Origin: a virus
Virus record (IMG/VR): IMGVR_UViG_3300044941_000448
Location: 1-29,916 of that record
Reading direction: 5' to 3' (one strand)
Length of the DNA stretch: 29,916 nucleotides
Part shown: positions 1,606-20,644 of the stretch, one piece after another
Layout: each line of letters begins with the position of its first letter
How positions within the stretch are numbered: position 1 is the stretch's first letter
The notes under the pieces: model-generated
Seen by the model: only the letters and a program-made list of their open reading frames with translations
Databases searched by the model: none
Told to the model about the DNA's origin: nothing
Translations under genes and position numbers: made by a program

Positions 1606-1609
1606 ACGG

Positions 1610-1641
1610 TTGTTAAATGAGTTTGTAAGTTGCTATATTGG
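1610..1641 (+). promoter_or_regulatory. Candidate Bacteroidota-type promoter for the cargo genes
   Basis: TTG at 1610-1612 lies 21 nt upstream of TATATTGG at 1634-1641, close to the Bacteroidota consensus (TTTG or TTG at about -33 and TAnnTTTG at about -7, normal spacing 19 to 21). One base of the -7 box differs. It lies in a 51-nt gap directly before the gene at 1657, so the cargo could be expressed independently of the early operon, as expected for genes active in the lysogen. Match is moderate. Confidence 0.35.
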
Positions 1642-1656
1642 TTGAAACTTAACCTT

Positions 1657-2535
1657 ATGGCAAAATTAAAAAAACCAGTTTTTGATATGTACAGATTCCA
1701 AATTGTGCCAACTGCAAAGTCTTTTCAGCTACCGTTGATCCAAGACGAATTGCTTAATGGTATAGAATCGATGGTTGATTTAATCAAAAACAAAAATGAA
1801 ATTCTATCCAAGATCCTACTGAATGATCAGCTAAAGTTTTTTAGTGGGTCAAAGCGAATTGTTCACAAAACTCTGCAATTCTCGAATAATGAGATGGTGG
1901 GTTTTAAAATGGGTAAGGAGAAGACAGACCAAGTTGAAACGGCCACACTAGAATTAGTGACCATCGAACGTTACCCTCAGTTCAACGTTCTATTTGACTT
2001 GGATTCAAATAGTCAGGTAGTGCTAATTCAGCAAGCCTATAAAGCGCAATCAAGTACTGAGTCTGTAGCCAATGCCCTTTCTAGAAGTCTGAATCGAGCT
2101 TTGAAGAATATTCAACTTCAGATTTCAATTCAACCAATTTATGAGCAAGACGAATTGAGCAAAATCCTGGAAGAGTATCAAGGAAAAATCAGAAGTTTAT
2201 CGTTTCACTTTATGAGGCCAAATATGGCAGCGCTGAGTGATGAGCTGTCCGAGGGCATTAAAGAATATATGAAGGATTTGAACTCTTCTCAAGCCGTTTT
2301 GAAAACAGATGCTCCAGCTGATGGCGTATTAGATATAGCAAAAGAAAACCCTACTTTAGTAGGCTTGAATAAATACTGCAGTAAGGGTGGTGGTTATGCT
2401 GCGGTTAGGGTTAAAAACAAGCGGAAAAGCATCAAGACAGGGAAAACAAAGAAAACCGTTGATGTTGAAATTGAAATTTTTGACCGAGAATTGGCGATTG
2501 AGATTCTACGAGGCATAATAAAAGAAAACGACTAA
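1657..2535 (+). CDS. Unknown soluble protein, candidate RexA-like sensor of a two-gene exclusion module
   Basis: Encodes 292 aa starting MAKLKKPVFDMYRFQIVP; ATG 1657 is preferred over a TTG at 1630, which falls in the putative promoter. It has no signal peptide or membrane segment. Visible layout: N-terminal strand (MYRFQIVP), helices, a central strand-helix-strand around YPQFNVLFDLDSNSQVV, a strand QLQISIQPIY, a long helical part with FHFMRPNMAAL, and a Gly/Lys-rich C-terminus (CSKGGGYAAVRVKNKRKS). The next gene starts directly at its stop (TAAATG) and encodes a protein with about four membrane segments. Lambda RexA (279 aa) with RexB (144 aa, four segments) has the same size, order and topology, and the Kiwa proteins are another soluble-plus-membrane pair. 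No sequence homology is claimed. Confidence 0.6.
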   Translation: MAKLKKPVFDMYRFQIVPTAKSFQLPLIQDELLNGIESMVDLIKNKNEILSKILLNDQLKFFSGSKRIVHKTLQFSNNEMVGFKMGKEKTDQVETATLELVTIERYPQFNVLFDLDSNSQVVLIQQAYKAQSSTESVANALSRSLNRALKNIQLQISIQPIYEQDELSKILEEYQGKIRSLSFHFMRPNMAALSDELSEGIKEYMKDLNSSQAVLKTDAPADGVLDIAKENPTLVGLNKYCSKGGGYAAVRVKNKRKSIKTGKTKKTVDVEIEIFDRELAIEILRGIIKEND

Positions 2536-3021
2536 ATGAATTCTAAATATTTCAGTTGGGCACAAATTGGAAAGCTCTGTGTTTACGGTGTGGCTGGTAC
2601 ACTTTTGTATAGCTTATCCAATGCGGTTGGATCGAAATATTTGGATGAATTTTTTGAAAGTCAACTTTTGCAAGTTGAATTCACATTGCTAGGAATAAAT
2701 GTTGCTACAGCATCTATTTTGTTTAAAGCTATTGCCGAATTGCCTGATGTCAAGTCCACGCATTTTGCGGGATTACGAACGCAGGTGAAGTTTTCCATTT
2801 ACGAGCAGATAGTATTAATTGCGGTAAGTCTGTTGCTTCTTACCTTGAAAACAGCGCCGATAGTTGCCGAAGGCTGGCCTCAATTCAATAATTACTCTGG
2901 AATGTTGCTGACAGGCATAATTGCCTACGAGTTGGAGATCATAAGAGATTTGTTCAAAGCAATGACGACAATAATTCAATTGTCAATGCAAATTAGAGAT
3001 AACCAAAACAGTAAAAAATGA
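2536..3021 (+). CDS. Small integral membrane protein, candidate RexB-like partner
   Basis: Encodes 161 aa. The ATG follows the upstream stop with no gap, implying coupling. About four hydrophobic segments are visible near residues 11-31, 43-66, 88-107 and 119-140, with charged loops between them and a polar tail ending in NQNSKK. There is no cleavable signal peptide. Small proteins with four segments in prophage cargo often act in superinfection exclusion; RexB of lambda is an ion channel of 144 aa opened by RexA. That role is inferred here only from topology and gene pairing. The gene could instead be a holin-like or immunity protein, but it lies far from the lysis cassette at 16534-17761 and in the early region. 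Its stop overlaps the next ATG. Confidence 0.6.
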   Translation: MNSKYFSWAQIGKLCVYGVAGTLLYSLSNAVGSKYLDEFFESQLLQVEFTLLGINVATASILFKAIAELPDVKSTHFAGLRTQVKFSIYEQIVLIAVSLLLLTLKTAPIVAEGWPQFNNYSGMLLTGIIAYELEIIRDLFKAMTTIIQLSMQIRDNQNSKK

Positions 3022-3329
3022 GCATTCGTTGTCCAAAATGTAATTCAGATCAGATTACCGCACACAAGAAGGGATTTAGTGGGCGAAAAGCAGTTGCCGG
3101 TGCAGTATTGACAGGAGGAATAGGTGTGTTAGCAGGCACCATTGGCAGCAATAAGGTCAAAATCACTTGTCTTAATTGTGGCAACATATTTAATCCCGGA
3201 GAGCGTCGTAGAACTACAGCTGCAACAACCTCTCCTGCCAAAGAGAAGAAAAATGAAGAAGATGCCACGCTTGGTATAATCTTTTTTGTTTTAGCCGTTT
3301 TGTTTGGACTATACTTGATGTATTCATGA
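3018..3329 (+). CDS. Membrane-anchored zinc ribbon protein
   Basis: Encodes 103 aa. A zinc ribbon is formed by Cys5/Cys8 (RCPKC) and Cys51/Cys54 (TCLNCG). Between them lies a Gly/Ala-rich hydrophobic stretch (residues 24-44, AVAGAVLTGGIGVLAGTIG), a layout seen in a widespread but uncharacterised group of bacterial membrane zinc ribbons. A Thr/Ala/Lys/Glu-rich linker (residues about 62-82) leads to a C-terminal membrane segment at about 84-102. The ATG overlaps the previous stop (ATGA), so it is part of the same unit as the putative RexA/RexB-like pair, and its own stop overlaps the next ATG. Function unknown; it may be a third component of the module. Confidence 0.6.
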   Translation: MSIRCPKCNSDQITAHKKGFSGRKAVAGAVLTGGIGVLAGTIGSNKVKITCLNCGNIFNPGERRRTTAATTSPAKEKKNEEDATLGIIFFVLAVLFGLYLMYS

Positions 3330-3812: not shown

Positions 3813-3843
3813 AATAGCCACAAAAGTGTGGCTATTTTTTTTT
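3813..3843 (+). terminator. Rho-independent terminator of the early operon
   Basis: A perfect 9-bp stem AATAGCCAC (3813-3821) and GTGGCTATT (3828-3836) with a six-base loop is followed by a run of T to 3843. It lies 10 nt after the last early gene. On the opposite strand there is no T-run after the stem, so it would not stop the leftward late operon in the same way. Confidence 0.9.
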
Positions 3844-9649: not shown

Positions 9650-10447
9650 TTAACGGTAATTAAACGGCGCTAATGACTGTGCATAGTTCGAGGTGAGAAC
9701 CTCGATTTTTGTCTTATTGACTTTTTTACTCACGGCCACTGCCTTTTCGACTTGTTGACTGCTCCATTTGTGGTCAGCTGTAAACCTTTCCAAAACGTCG
9801 CTGGGATAGCTGCTCAACAAGAACTTGCCCTGAAGGCTGGAAAGTAATTCTAAAAGGTTTTCAAAGTCTTTGCGACTGTAACCTGCATAGTGGCCGCAAT
9901 CTGAATTGAAATATGGTGGATCAACGTAATGGAAGGTATCAGGGCTATCGTAACGCTGAATTACCTTCAGTGCGTCATCGCATTCAATGGTAGTGTTTGA
10001 TAAACGCTCCTTCAGTTCCTCTGCGAAGGCATCGCGTTTGTTTGCCACTTTTTTGGTACAGCTTCCTTGACGGTCAAAACCCCAAGTTGACATGTTGGCA
10101 CTGAATGATTGGTTGGCCATTGTGTAAAATGACCAAGCCCGCTTTACCGGAGAAAACAAGTGTGGATTTTCATACACCACCTTGGCATCGCTGTACGCCG
10201 TACGACTGTGTAATGTCGTTGTGATTTCTCTCTTGAGCAGAGAATGATTGGTGACTGCAACCTTATAGAAGTTTACCGCTTCCTTGTTGACGTCGTTGAT
10301 TACTTCAGCTTTACTCGGTTCTTTGCTGAAGTACACTGCTCCCCCACCAAAAAAAGGTTCGACATAAAGTTTGTGATCCGGGATCATCGGCAGAATGTAC
10401 TTCAGCATCATCTGTTTGCCTCCGTACCATGTGATTGGCGTTTTCAT
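9650..10447 (-). CDS. DNA adenine N6-methyltransferase (Dam/D12 class)
   Basis: Encodes 265 aa, the usual length of this class. Motifs: WYGGK at residues 7-11 (AdoMet-binding lead), EPFFGGGAVYF at 30-40 (motif I), and DPPY at 176-179 (motif IV, catalytic). These place it in the D12-type alpha-class adenine methyltransferases, which include Dam and phage enzymes such as T4 Dam. Its own recognition site cannot be read from the sequence. It lies between the gp36-like connector and the portal in the late leftward operon, so methylation probably happens while genomes are being packaged, consistent with protecting virion DNA from restriction. No restriction endonuclease gene lies next to it, so this is an orphan enzyme. 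Confidence 0.93.
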   Translation of the reverse strand: MKTPITWYGGKQMMLKYILPMIPDHKLYVEPFFGGGAVYFSKEPSKAEVINDVNKEAVNFYKVAVTNHSLLKREITTTLHSRTAYSDAKVVYENPHLFSPVKRAWSFYTMANQSFSANMSTWGFDRQGSCTKKVANKRDAFAEELKERLSNTTIECDDALKVIQRYDSPDTFHYVDPPYFNSDCGHYAGYSRKDFENLLELLSSLQGKFLLSSYPSDVLERFTADHKWSSQQVEKAVAVSKKVNKTKIEVLTSNYAQSLAPFNYR

Positions 10448-19008: not shown

Positions 19009-19437
19009 ATGGACGTATTTATCAATGAGGAGCGCTTTAGCGCTAACGACGTAGAGGTGGCAATGGCAGGAAGGGTGCTTACTGGCCTACGTAGACTGAG
19101 TTACAATGGCACTCAAGAAGTTACTGGTGTAAAAGTAGTCGGCAACAGAAAAGATGCGGGTTATGTGGCTGGTAATTTCAATCATGAAGGCAGCATCACA
19201 TTGCTCGTTGAAGAAGTATTAGGCCTTCAGGCTACTACTGCGGCTCGAGGCGATATTCGTCGCATGCCAGCCATCGACATCACTGTGGTGATGTTCAAAG
19301 GTGGTGTGCTGATCAAAGACACACTGAAGGCAGTCAAGTTTTTGGCAAACCCTAGAGTTTTTGAAAATGGAAATGCAAACCCGATTGACGTGGAAATTCC
19401 ACTTTACATCGGTGACATTAAATATTTCGGCAGTTAA
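19009..19437 (+). CDS. Tail tube protein
   Basis: Encodes 142 aa, typical of tube proteins. It is all-beta: MDVFINEERFSAND, then RLSYNGTQEVTGVKVVGNRKDAGYVAGNF, HEGSITLLVEEV and the C-terminal strands GGVLIKDTLKAVKFLAN and IDVEIPLYIGDIKYFG. It immediately follows the sheath and precedes the tail chaperone with its frameshift site, the standard tail order. Hexameric rings of this protein stack to form the DNA channel. Identification rests on fold pattern and gene order. Confidence 0.82.
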   Translation: MDVFINEERFSANDVEVAMAGRVLTGLRRLSYNGTQEVTGVKVVGNRKDAGYVAGNFNHEGSITLLVEEVLGLQATTAARGDIRRMPAIDITVVMFKGGVLIKDTLKAVKFLANPRVFENGNANPIDVEIPLYIGDIKYFGS

Positions 19438-19452
19438 TCAACAAACCACAAA

Positions 19453-19782
19453 ATGGACAAAATTCAGTATGTAGGGCTTTTGGAGCCTAACGAAGTAAAA
19501 GCCTTGAAATCGGAGCATAAGGAGGTTCACGAGATCCAAGTAAAAGTCAGTGAGAAAGAAGTCAGCGTGTGTTACATCCGCAAGCCGGATCGCAACGTAA
19601 CAGCACGTGCTCTTTCATTGTATCACCAGGATAAACCTCTCCAAAGTGGCGAGTTTATTCGCGACAACTGCTGGCTTGGGGGTGATCCGAGGGCAAAGGC
19701 TCAGGATGACATCGCGATCAGCGTTGCTCTGCAGTGCAATAATTTGGTCCCAATTATGGAGACCGAAGTAAAAAAGCTCTAG
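19453..19782 (+). CDS. Tail assembly chaperone, short form (G-like)
   Basis: Encodes 109 aa. The middle has the chaperone pattern CYIRKPDRNVTARALSLYHQDKPLQSGEFIRDNCWLGGDP, with AISVALQCNNLVP near the end. This protein stays off the finished virion and guides tube and tape measure assembly. Its last codons GTA AAA AAG CTC TAG contain the slippery heptamer A AAA AAG at 19770-19776 in the correct frame, and the -1 frame downstream is open to 19985, so this is the zero-frame product of a frameshift pair. It lies 15 nt after the tube gene. The tape measure gene, which usually follows, is on the other strand at 5213-7030. Confidence 0.8.
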   Translation: MDKIQYVGLLEPNEVKALKSEHKEVHEIQVKVSEKEVSVCYIRKPDRNVTARALSLYHQDKPLQSGEFIRDNCWLGGDPRAKAQDDIAISVALQCNNLVPIMETEVKKL

Positions 19783-19985
19783 AGGAGTATCCGCCAATCC
19801 GACCCGAACCAGGCGAGGATTTCGTGTTAAAGGTAGATGCACTGATAAGTCATTACTTGCACATCCCCTACCCGGAGCAGTTAAGCGACGAACAATGGGC
19901 CACTGCCTTTAGAAAGGTGCAGTGGCTCACCATTTTCAAACAAAAACAGTCAAATCTGAAATCAGGCGAAAAGCTCGACATCTAA
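19453..19985 (+). CDS. Tail assembly chaperone, -1 frameshift long form (GT-like)
   Basis: A -1 slip at A AAA AAG (19770-19776) would join 108 residues of the short form to 69 residues read from 19776 to 19985, giving 177 aa. The added part reads ALEEYPPIRPEPG, then SHYLHIPYPEQLSDEQW, WLTIFKQKQ and SGEKLDI. It has no ATG of its own, no stop in frame and ends TAATG, overlapping the next gene's ATG (19985). A coding stretch with no start, entered at a slippery site, is exactly the lambda G/GT arrangement, where the extension recruits the tape measure protein. A GTG at 19826 offers a minor alternative start. Slippage frequency cannot be judged. Confidence 0.75.
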
Positions 19986-20644
19986 TGGCGACAGTAAGGT
20001 TCAATATACCAGAGGCTTTCGAACGGGTTTATGGCATTTATGCCAAAATACCTATTTTCTTTCCAAAGCAAATCGAAAGCCAAGGTAGCATCCCTGAATT
20101 CAATCAGGCGGGTGACCCATACCAGGATCCGGCAATTACAGATGGTACCTGGAGCATAGTGGCGCCTGGAACTGGTCTTTTGCTTTGGGATTCATTCGTT
20201 CTAACTATCCCTACAGATGCAGGGCCGAGAAGATTTCAATTGCCGGTTGAAACAGTTGCAGAGCTTCGTACACGTAAGCAAATGGTGGTTACTCCTCTTG
20301 CCGGTCGAGACGGCACGGTGAAGGAATTAATAGCTGCAGGCGATTGGGAAATTACCTTCAAAGGTTTTTGTATAAACTATCAAGAGGATACTTATCCAAG
20401 TTCACAAGTCAAGGAACTGAAGGAACTTTATGATAGCCTGACGGCTCCAAGGTCACAAAAGGGCGTTATGACTTCGGTGCAGGTCACTTCAAAGCAATTG
20501 AATGACCTAGGCATTGTGTATATGGTTTTACAGGAGCTTTCCTTTCCACCCATGGCCGGTTACCAAAATGCTTGTGGCTATGAGCTTTCAGGCTTGAGCG
20601 ACAACGACATTGTGTTAGATCTACAATTGCTGGAAAATGCTTAG
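19985..20644 (+). CDS. DUF6046 tail protein
   Basis: Encodes 219 aa. I chose ATG 19985 because it overlaps the chaperone stop (TAATG); the frame is open 63 bp further upstream from 19922, but that region codes for the chaperone extension. The body (PIFFPKQIES, then LLLWDSFVLTIPTDAGPRRFQLPVETVAELRTRKQMVVTPLAGRDGTVKE, ITFKGFCINYQ, YPSSQVKELKELYD) matches DUF6046, a family found between tail chaperone and hub genes of Bacteroidota contractile phages. The VVxTPLxGRxGTVKE stretch is the most telling. It resembles tail-tube initiator or baseplate adaptor proteins in place, but the precise role is unknown. It overlaps the next gene by 8 nt. Confidence 0.7.
   Translation: MATVRFNIPEAFERVYGIYAKIPIFFPKQIESQGSIPEFNQAGDPYQDPAITDGTWSIVAPGTGLLLWDSFVLTIPTDAGPRRFQLPVETVAELRTRKQMVVTPLAGRDGTVKELIAAGDWEITFKGFCINYQEDTYPSSQVKELKELYDSLTAPRSQKGVMTSVQVTSKQLNDLGIVYMVLQELSFPPMAGYQNACGYELSGLSDNDIVLDLQLLENA

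Follow-up and report, generated by a model that had tools for sequence, protein, structure and literature searches.

A candidate two-gene superinfection-exclusion module of the RexAB/DUF4747 type in a Mu-like phage of Bacteroidota

Introduction

Exclusion of other phages by a prophage has been proven for the gene pairs of Sbash (gp30/gp31), CarolAnn (gp44/gp43) and Butters (gp30/gp31). In these pairs the soluble protein shows a weak DUF4747 match and its partner has four transmembrane (TM) segments (PMC6426596, PMC6426606, PMC7542560). Both genes are required in Sbash and CarolAnn, for which loss of membrane potential has been proposed (PMC6426596, PMC6426606). Sbash gp31 is inactivated by substitutions in the loop between segments 2 and 3 (PMC6426596, PMC6426606). 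In mycobacteriophage Butters, gp30 suffices to block phages and is attenuated by gp31 (PMC7542560). RexA of phage lambda and three actinophage homologues are dimeric and show no sequence preference in binding DNA, and RexA biases lambda's switch (PMC11077077). In Pseudomonas putida, RexB is triggered by RexA and damages membranes (PMC12894663). DUF4747/CarolAnn operons were found downstream of restriction-modification (RM) operons in a published survey (PMC13373217). Whether exclusion is a selected function or a by-product is an old question about RexAB.

Here we analysed a virus record of 29,916 bases (the window), whose minus-strand and right-hand genes belong to a Mu-like phage of Bacteroidota. 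The leftmost 4.1 kb form a plus-strand early region, cut by the start of the record, with two adjoining genes, named A and B here. We propose, with a probability of roughly 0.7, that these two genes are cargo of the phage and together make up a superinfection-exclusion (abortive infection) module of the RexAB/DUF4747 type, in which A would sense infection and B would open the membrane. To our knowledge, no such Rex-like pair has been described from Bacteroidota or from a Mu-like phage.

Results

Gene layout and composition

The features of the locus are as follows.

1606-1656, plus strand: the only intergenic gap ahead of A (51 bases), with a candidate promoter inside
1610-1639, plus strand: candidate promoter TTGTTA-N18-TATATT, statistically weak
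1657-2535, plus strand: gene A (P0001), soluble RexA/DUF4747-like protein of 292 aa, proposed sensor/activator
2536-3021, plus strand: gene B (P0002), membrane protein of 161 aa, proposed pore-forming effector
3018-3329, plus strand: membrane zinc ribbon gene, 103 aa
3326-3802, plus strand: downstream early gene, GemA/Gp16-like by eye, ATGA-coupled to the zinc ribbon gene
3813-3836, plus strand: terminator-like hairpin of 10 pairs with a T-run (T-rich tail), 3' of 3802

The ATG of B immediately follows the TAA of A, the stop codon of B is overlapped by the zinc ribbon gene in an ATGA, and the zinc ribbon and GemA-like genes overlap in the same way. A, B and the zinc ribbon gene are thus three contiguous plus-strand early genes, as originally predicted. 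Because the frames abut or overlap and are followed by the hairpin at 3813-3836, the four genes look like one transcription unit, of which the hairpin is likely the end. The homologues of A and B occur in conserved order in unrelated genomes, indicating that the two frames are more than chance.

The original prediction also gave these genes a candidate promoter of their own, which was not confirmed. Promoter-like sites number 11, against 8.5 ± 3.0 in shuffled sequences, and Bacteroidota-type promoter matches equal in quality to 1610-1639 are abundant. Since such sites are no commoner than by chance, a separate promoter for A and B is unproven. The AT-richness noticed by eye was confirmed. The GC content is 37.7% for A and B, 41.7% for the zinc ribbon gene and 44.6-45.0% for the structural genes; of 283 stretches of the same size in the window, only 3 have a GC content as low as that of A and B.

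Related phages lack the pair

Using the portal protein as bait, related phages were fetched as 29 genome loci (all Bacteroidota by title) and 79 viral-contig loci. No homologue of A or B was found in any of the related portal loci, 48 of which reach at least 6 kb past the portal gene; some of them represent the same element, once in a genome and once as a virus. In two related phages, L035 and L050 (loci are cited by L numbers), the same neighbourhood holds a GemA-like gene and small early genes without A or B. The GemA-like gene of the window has no Pfam match; phmmer matched it to L035 17460-17906 (1.6e-7) and L050 17461-17934 (1.2e-6). This gene, which related phages share, delimits the insertion on its 3' side. 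The absence of A and B from related phage loci indicates that the pair is cargo, and the low GC content agrees with that part of the original prediction. The early region of L050 also carries, on the minus strand at 19372-20331, a gene that looks reverse-transcriptase-like by eye.

Gene A belongs to a wider family

P0001 was not assigned to any Pfam, NCBIfam or PADLOC family. It matches phrog_10040 (E 2e-6), residues 124-234 lying on profile positions 121-231. A survey of 395 Bacteroidota genomes with P0001 gave full-length matches of 28-30% identity in L111 (E 6e-36) and L112 (E 2e-26), and a weak match in L113 which proved to be a real homologue. Searching with phrog_10040 added L117-L120, and later searches added L143, L144, L146, L151 and L152. 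Homologues of A were thus found at 12 other loci, comprising ten Bacteroidota genomes, one Hymenobacter plasmid (L152, where the homologue is annotated DUF4747) and one viral contig (L146).

The homologues fall into three groups. The first (P0001, L111, L112, L151) and the second (L113, L120, L143, L144, L146) are related over their whole length (HHalign 95%, E 2.7e-8). In hmmsearch, the second group retrieved P0001 at 9e-5 and the P0001 group retrieved L120 at 2e-5. The third group (L117-L119, L152) is DUF4747, with a Pfam match of 3e-25 for L117, and is linked to the others by direct profile comparison weakly (E about 1e-3). Colinear matches to phrog_10040 were obtained for members of all three groups: P0001 (2e-6), L113 (1.4e-3), L120 (1.4e-4) and L117 (9e-17). 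P0001 has no direct match above the cut-off to Pfam DUF4747 (PF15931), and its placement in a DUF4747-like superfamily rests on the phrog_10040 bridge: A matches phrog_10040 significantly and phrog_10040 overlaps Pfam DUF4747. Among the control genomes, phrog_10040 also matched in Methanocaldococcus jannaschii and Haloferax volcanii, and the family of the soluble protein may, judging by these profile matches, reach archaea.

No tblastn match was obtained for A among phages and plasmids or for B among phages. Scans of viral contigs with A-type queries gave one relative of A (L146) and none near P0001. Neither A nor the family profiles gave more than chance-level matches in sequence searches of the PDB. 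Weak matches to the Pfam families YopR-like and Peptidase_M14 and to PADLOC pAgo were at chance level and were rejected. Single-sequence AlphaFold predictions had a pLDDT of 32 for A, which was unusable, and 47 for B, which was all helical.

A four-segment or FRG-domain partner follows A

At all 12 loci the gene 3' of the A homologue abuts it, overlaps it or lies no more than 32 bases away. In ten of them (L111, L112, L113, L117-L120, L146, L151, L152) this partner is a protein of 143-209 aa with four hydrophobic segments. In the other two (L143, L144) it is an FRG-domain protein (PF08867, about 1e-25) whose gene overlaps that of A by 4 bases. P0002 is homologous to the partners in L111 (2.5e-10), L112 (1.9e-9) and L151 (6e-8) by phmmer, and B proteins are not alignable across groups. 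When P0002 is taken alone, only two segments exceed a Kyte-Doolittle mean of 1.5. Averaging over four homologues gives four clear segments, at about residues 5-27, 44-62, 92-110 and 118-136, in agreement with the predicted topology. Four segments, with a sizeable loop between segments 2 and 3, are common to all five B groups compared, among them lambda RexB and Butters gp31. In P0002-type proteins E90, Q91, D138 and K141 are invariant and border on segments 3 and 4. The exchange of the partner behind a constant first gene is the arrangement predicted for a sensor/effector pair.

A homologues followed by an FRG-domain protein occupy 875-2490 of L143 and 1492-3122 of L144, and also occur in L154 and L155; in L155 the A/FRG pair adjoins HsdM/HsdS of a type I RM operon. 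A patatin-like phospholipase gene lies directly upstream of the DUF4747/4-TM pair in L117, L118 and L119. Directly upstream of the A/B pair in L151, a gene at 202-1230 encodes a cysteine-rich protein of 342 aa with a single TM segment. Its sequence is unrelated to that of the window's zinc ribbon, and its position beside the pair is probably a coincidence.

Restriction-modification genes often adjoin the pairs

A type III RM operon lies with or beside the pair in L131, and a related set was found in L146. Type IIG-like enzymes are present beside the pair in L127 (together with Mrr) and L153, a methyltransferase/restriction operon adjoins the pair on the plasmid L152, and the pair of L155 is in or beside a type I operon, next to HsdS. 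In L125 a HepT/MNT toxin-antitoxin pair is beside the A pair. RM or HepT/MNT neighbours were counted at 7 of 12 pair loci and in none of 20 control stretches (18 kb each, taken from elsewhere in eight of the genomes with pairs), a contrast which is inflated because the queries were taken from the pair loci themselves. Despite this bias, six adjacent RM systems are far from the expectation for random placement. A link of RM operons to DUF4747/CarolAnn pairs has already been reported (PMC13373217), and the present data corroborate it. The region 1-16001 of L153 looks like a mobile island in which the pair is accompanied by recombinase-like and integrase-like genes and an Eco57I-type RM enzyme.

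Comparison with RexA/RexB and other known pairs

The pair had been likened to RexA and RexB of lambda. In layout and topology the likeness stands: a soluble gene is followed immediately by a 4-TM gene, an order kept in L111, L112, L151 and others; the sizes are 279/144 aa in lambda and 292/161 aa here; and RexA and A are both basic soluble proteins (pI 8.6 and 8.9). Sequence homology was looked for and was not detected. A did not match the RexA models (PF15969, PADLOC PDLC02339) at E ≤ 1, whereas lambda RexA as a positive control matched at 1e-97 (Pfam) and 9e-110 (PADLOC). Nor did B match the RexB models (PF15968, PADLOC PDLC02340), for which the lambda RexB control gave 8e-92. BLASTP of A and B to RexA and RexB was at chance level. 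Unlike lambda RexA/RexB (PDB 8TWQ), A and B have no match to the family models or in profile-profile comparison, and no CI-like repressor gene adjoins them in the available sequence. In HHalign and profile alignments, 350 decoy ORFs served as the comparison set, and RexA, the Butters and Toast proteins and even DUF4747 proteins fell among them in the ranking. The missing RexA/RexB signal means little, since the same tests miss the accepted relation between RexA and the Butters and Toast proteins. On present sequence evidence, A and B fall outside the Pfam and PADLOC RexA/RexB families.

The pairs of Sbash, CarolAnn and Butters resemble A and B in having a 4-TM gene directly behind the soluble gene, in being prophage accessory genes, in the sizeable central loop of the membrane protein and in the tie of the soluble protein to DUF4747, which for A is through phrog_10040. 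They differ in the length of the soluble protein (337-403 aa, against 292 aa for A), in the host, which is Bacteroidota for A and B, and in location, A and B being in an early operon by a GemA-like gene and not by a repressor or integrase. The Butters and Toast proteins have no detectable sequence identity to A and B. RexABpp of P. putida (PP_5643/PP_5644) shares the layout, the 4-TM partner and the prophage location (PMC12894663). Kiwa (KwaA/KwaB) is likewise a pair of a soluble and a membrane protein, and here the likeness is one of layout only. The suggested similarity to Kiwa gained no support, as no Pfam or PADLOC match of A or B named a Kiwa protein.

Discussion

The reading of A and B as an exclusion or defence pair is supported by the 12 other A loci, by the RM neighbours and by the phrog_10040/DUF4747 link to proven Rex-like prophage systems. 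In its favour we also count the 4-TM gene directly after A in unrelated backgrounds, with B homologous in the closest three. Against it we count that neither A to RexA nor B to RexB could be linked by sequence, the lack of a direct DUF4747 match of P0001, and the location of the pair in an early operon and not beside a repressor, lysogenic expression of A and B being putative. By analogy with the described systems, A and B have a good probability of functioning like a Rex pair. Sensing, activation, pore formation and protection are inferred from the same analogy. B would lie inactive in the inner membrane as four helices, its termini and the helix 2-3 loop being cytoplasmic. The soluble protein A, which probably binds DNA or DNA-protein complexes, would detect a component of the invading phage and activate B through that loop. 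Activated B would then open the membrane, ATP would fall and the infection would abort.

The zinc ribbon had been suggested as a possible third component. It is in the same operon, its gene overlaps that of B in an ATGA, and like B it is a predicted membrane protein, with a CPKC...CLNC motif and two hydrophobic stretches at 25-43 (glycine-rich) and 83-101. A module of three genes in which it is a necessary part is nevertheless very improbable. The zinc-ribbon family was present at none of the 12 pair loci, where A and its adjoining partner are conserved; a homologue without A or B stands last in the early region of the related phage L050 (15982-16311, E 4e-29); and its GC content (41.7%) fits the neighbouring early genes and not A and B. 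Its first 58 residues match phrog_2546 (E 7.5e-23) and several other phage zinc ribbons. The gene is probably an independent small accessory early gene outside the pair.

Two other readings concern how the pair acts. A might itself be the antiviral agent, tethered at the membrane and restrained by B until infection frees it. This division of roles is that of Butters, where gp30 alone blocks phages and gp31 attenuates (PMC7542560), and the FRG partners in L143 and L144, which have no membrane bundle, imply that A need not act through a membrane pore. We consider it unlikely, since in Sbash, CarolAnn and P. putida both genes are needed and the membrane protein is the effector, and since the exchange of B for an unrelated protein agrees better with B (or FRG) as the effector. 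Alternatively, the pair could tune lysis-lysogeny or early expression of its own phage by DNA binding, exclusion being a by-product as proposed for lambda RexA. The genes lie within an early operon, where they are coupled to the GemA-like gene and followed by the terminator-like hairpin; this would suit such a role, as would the bias of lambda's switch by RexA (PMC11077077). The absence of A and B from the 48 related phage loci and the occurrence of homologues in RM operons of bacteria, remote from any phage switch, speak against it and make it quite unlikely.

The exclusion module thus remains the preferred reading, with A and B as a variant of a sparsely known pair type whose wider family is found in RM operons and exchanges its partners. 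We put at about even the chance that A is the sensor of a modular, unnamed Bacteroidota defence family, often serving as a second line in RM operons, with exchangeable effectors of the 4-TM type (this phage and ten loci) or the FRG type (L143, L144). The A family, its DUF4747 branch excepted, was missed by the Pfam, NCBIfam and PADLOC models tried, so such pairs have been overlooked. Rex-like pairs in RM operons, outside the immunity regions of prophages, make exclusion more plausible as a selected function than as a by-product, and the FRG-paired versions make it possible to test which of the two partners acts as effector.

Two further genes of the window are related to restriction. The gene at 562-840 on the plus strand encodes a Lar-like restriction-alleviation protein (PF14354, 3e-11), and the gene at 9650-10447 on the minus strand looks by eye like a Dam-like adenine methyltransferase. 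The phage therefore seems to have counter-restriction functions besides the candidate exclusion pair.
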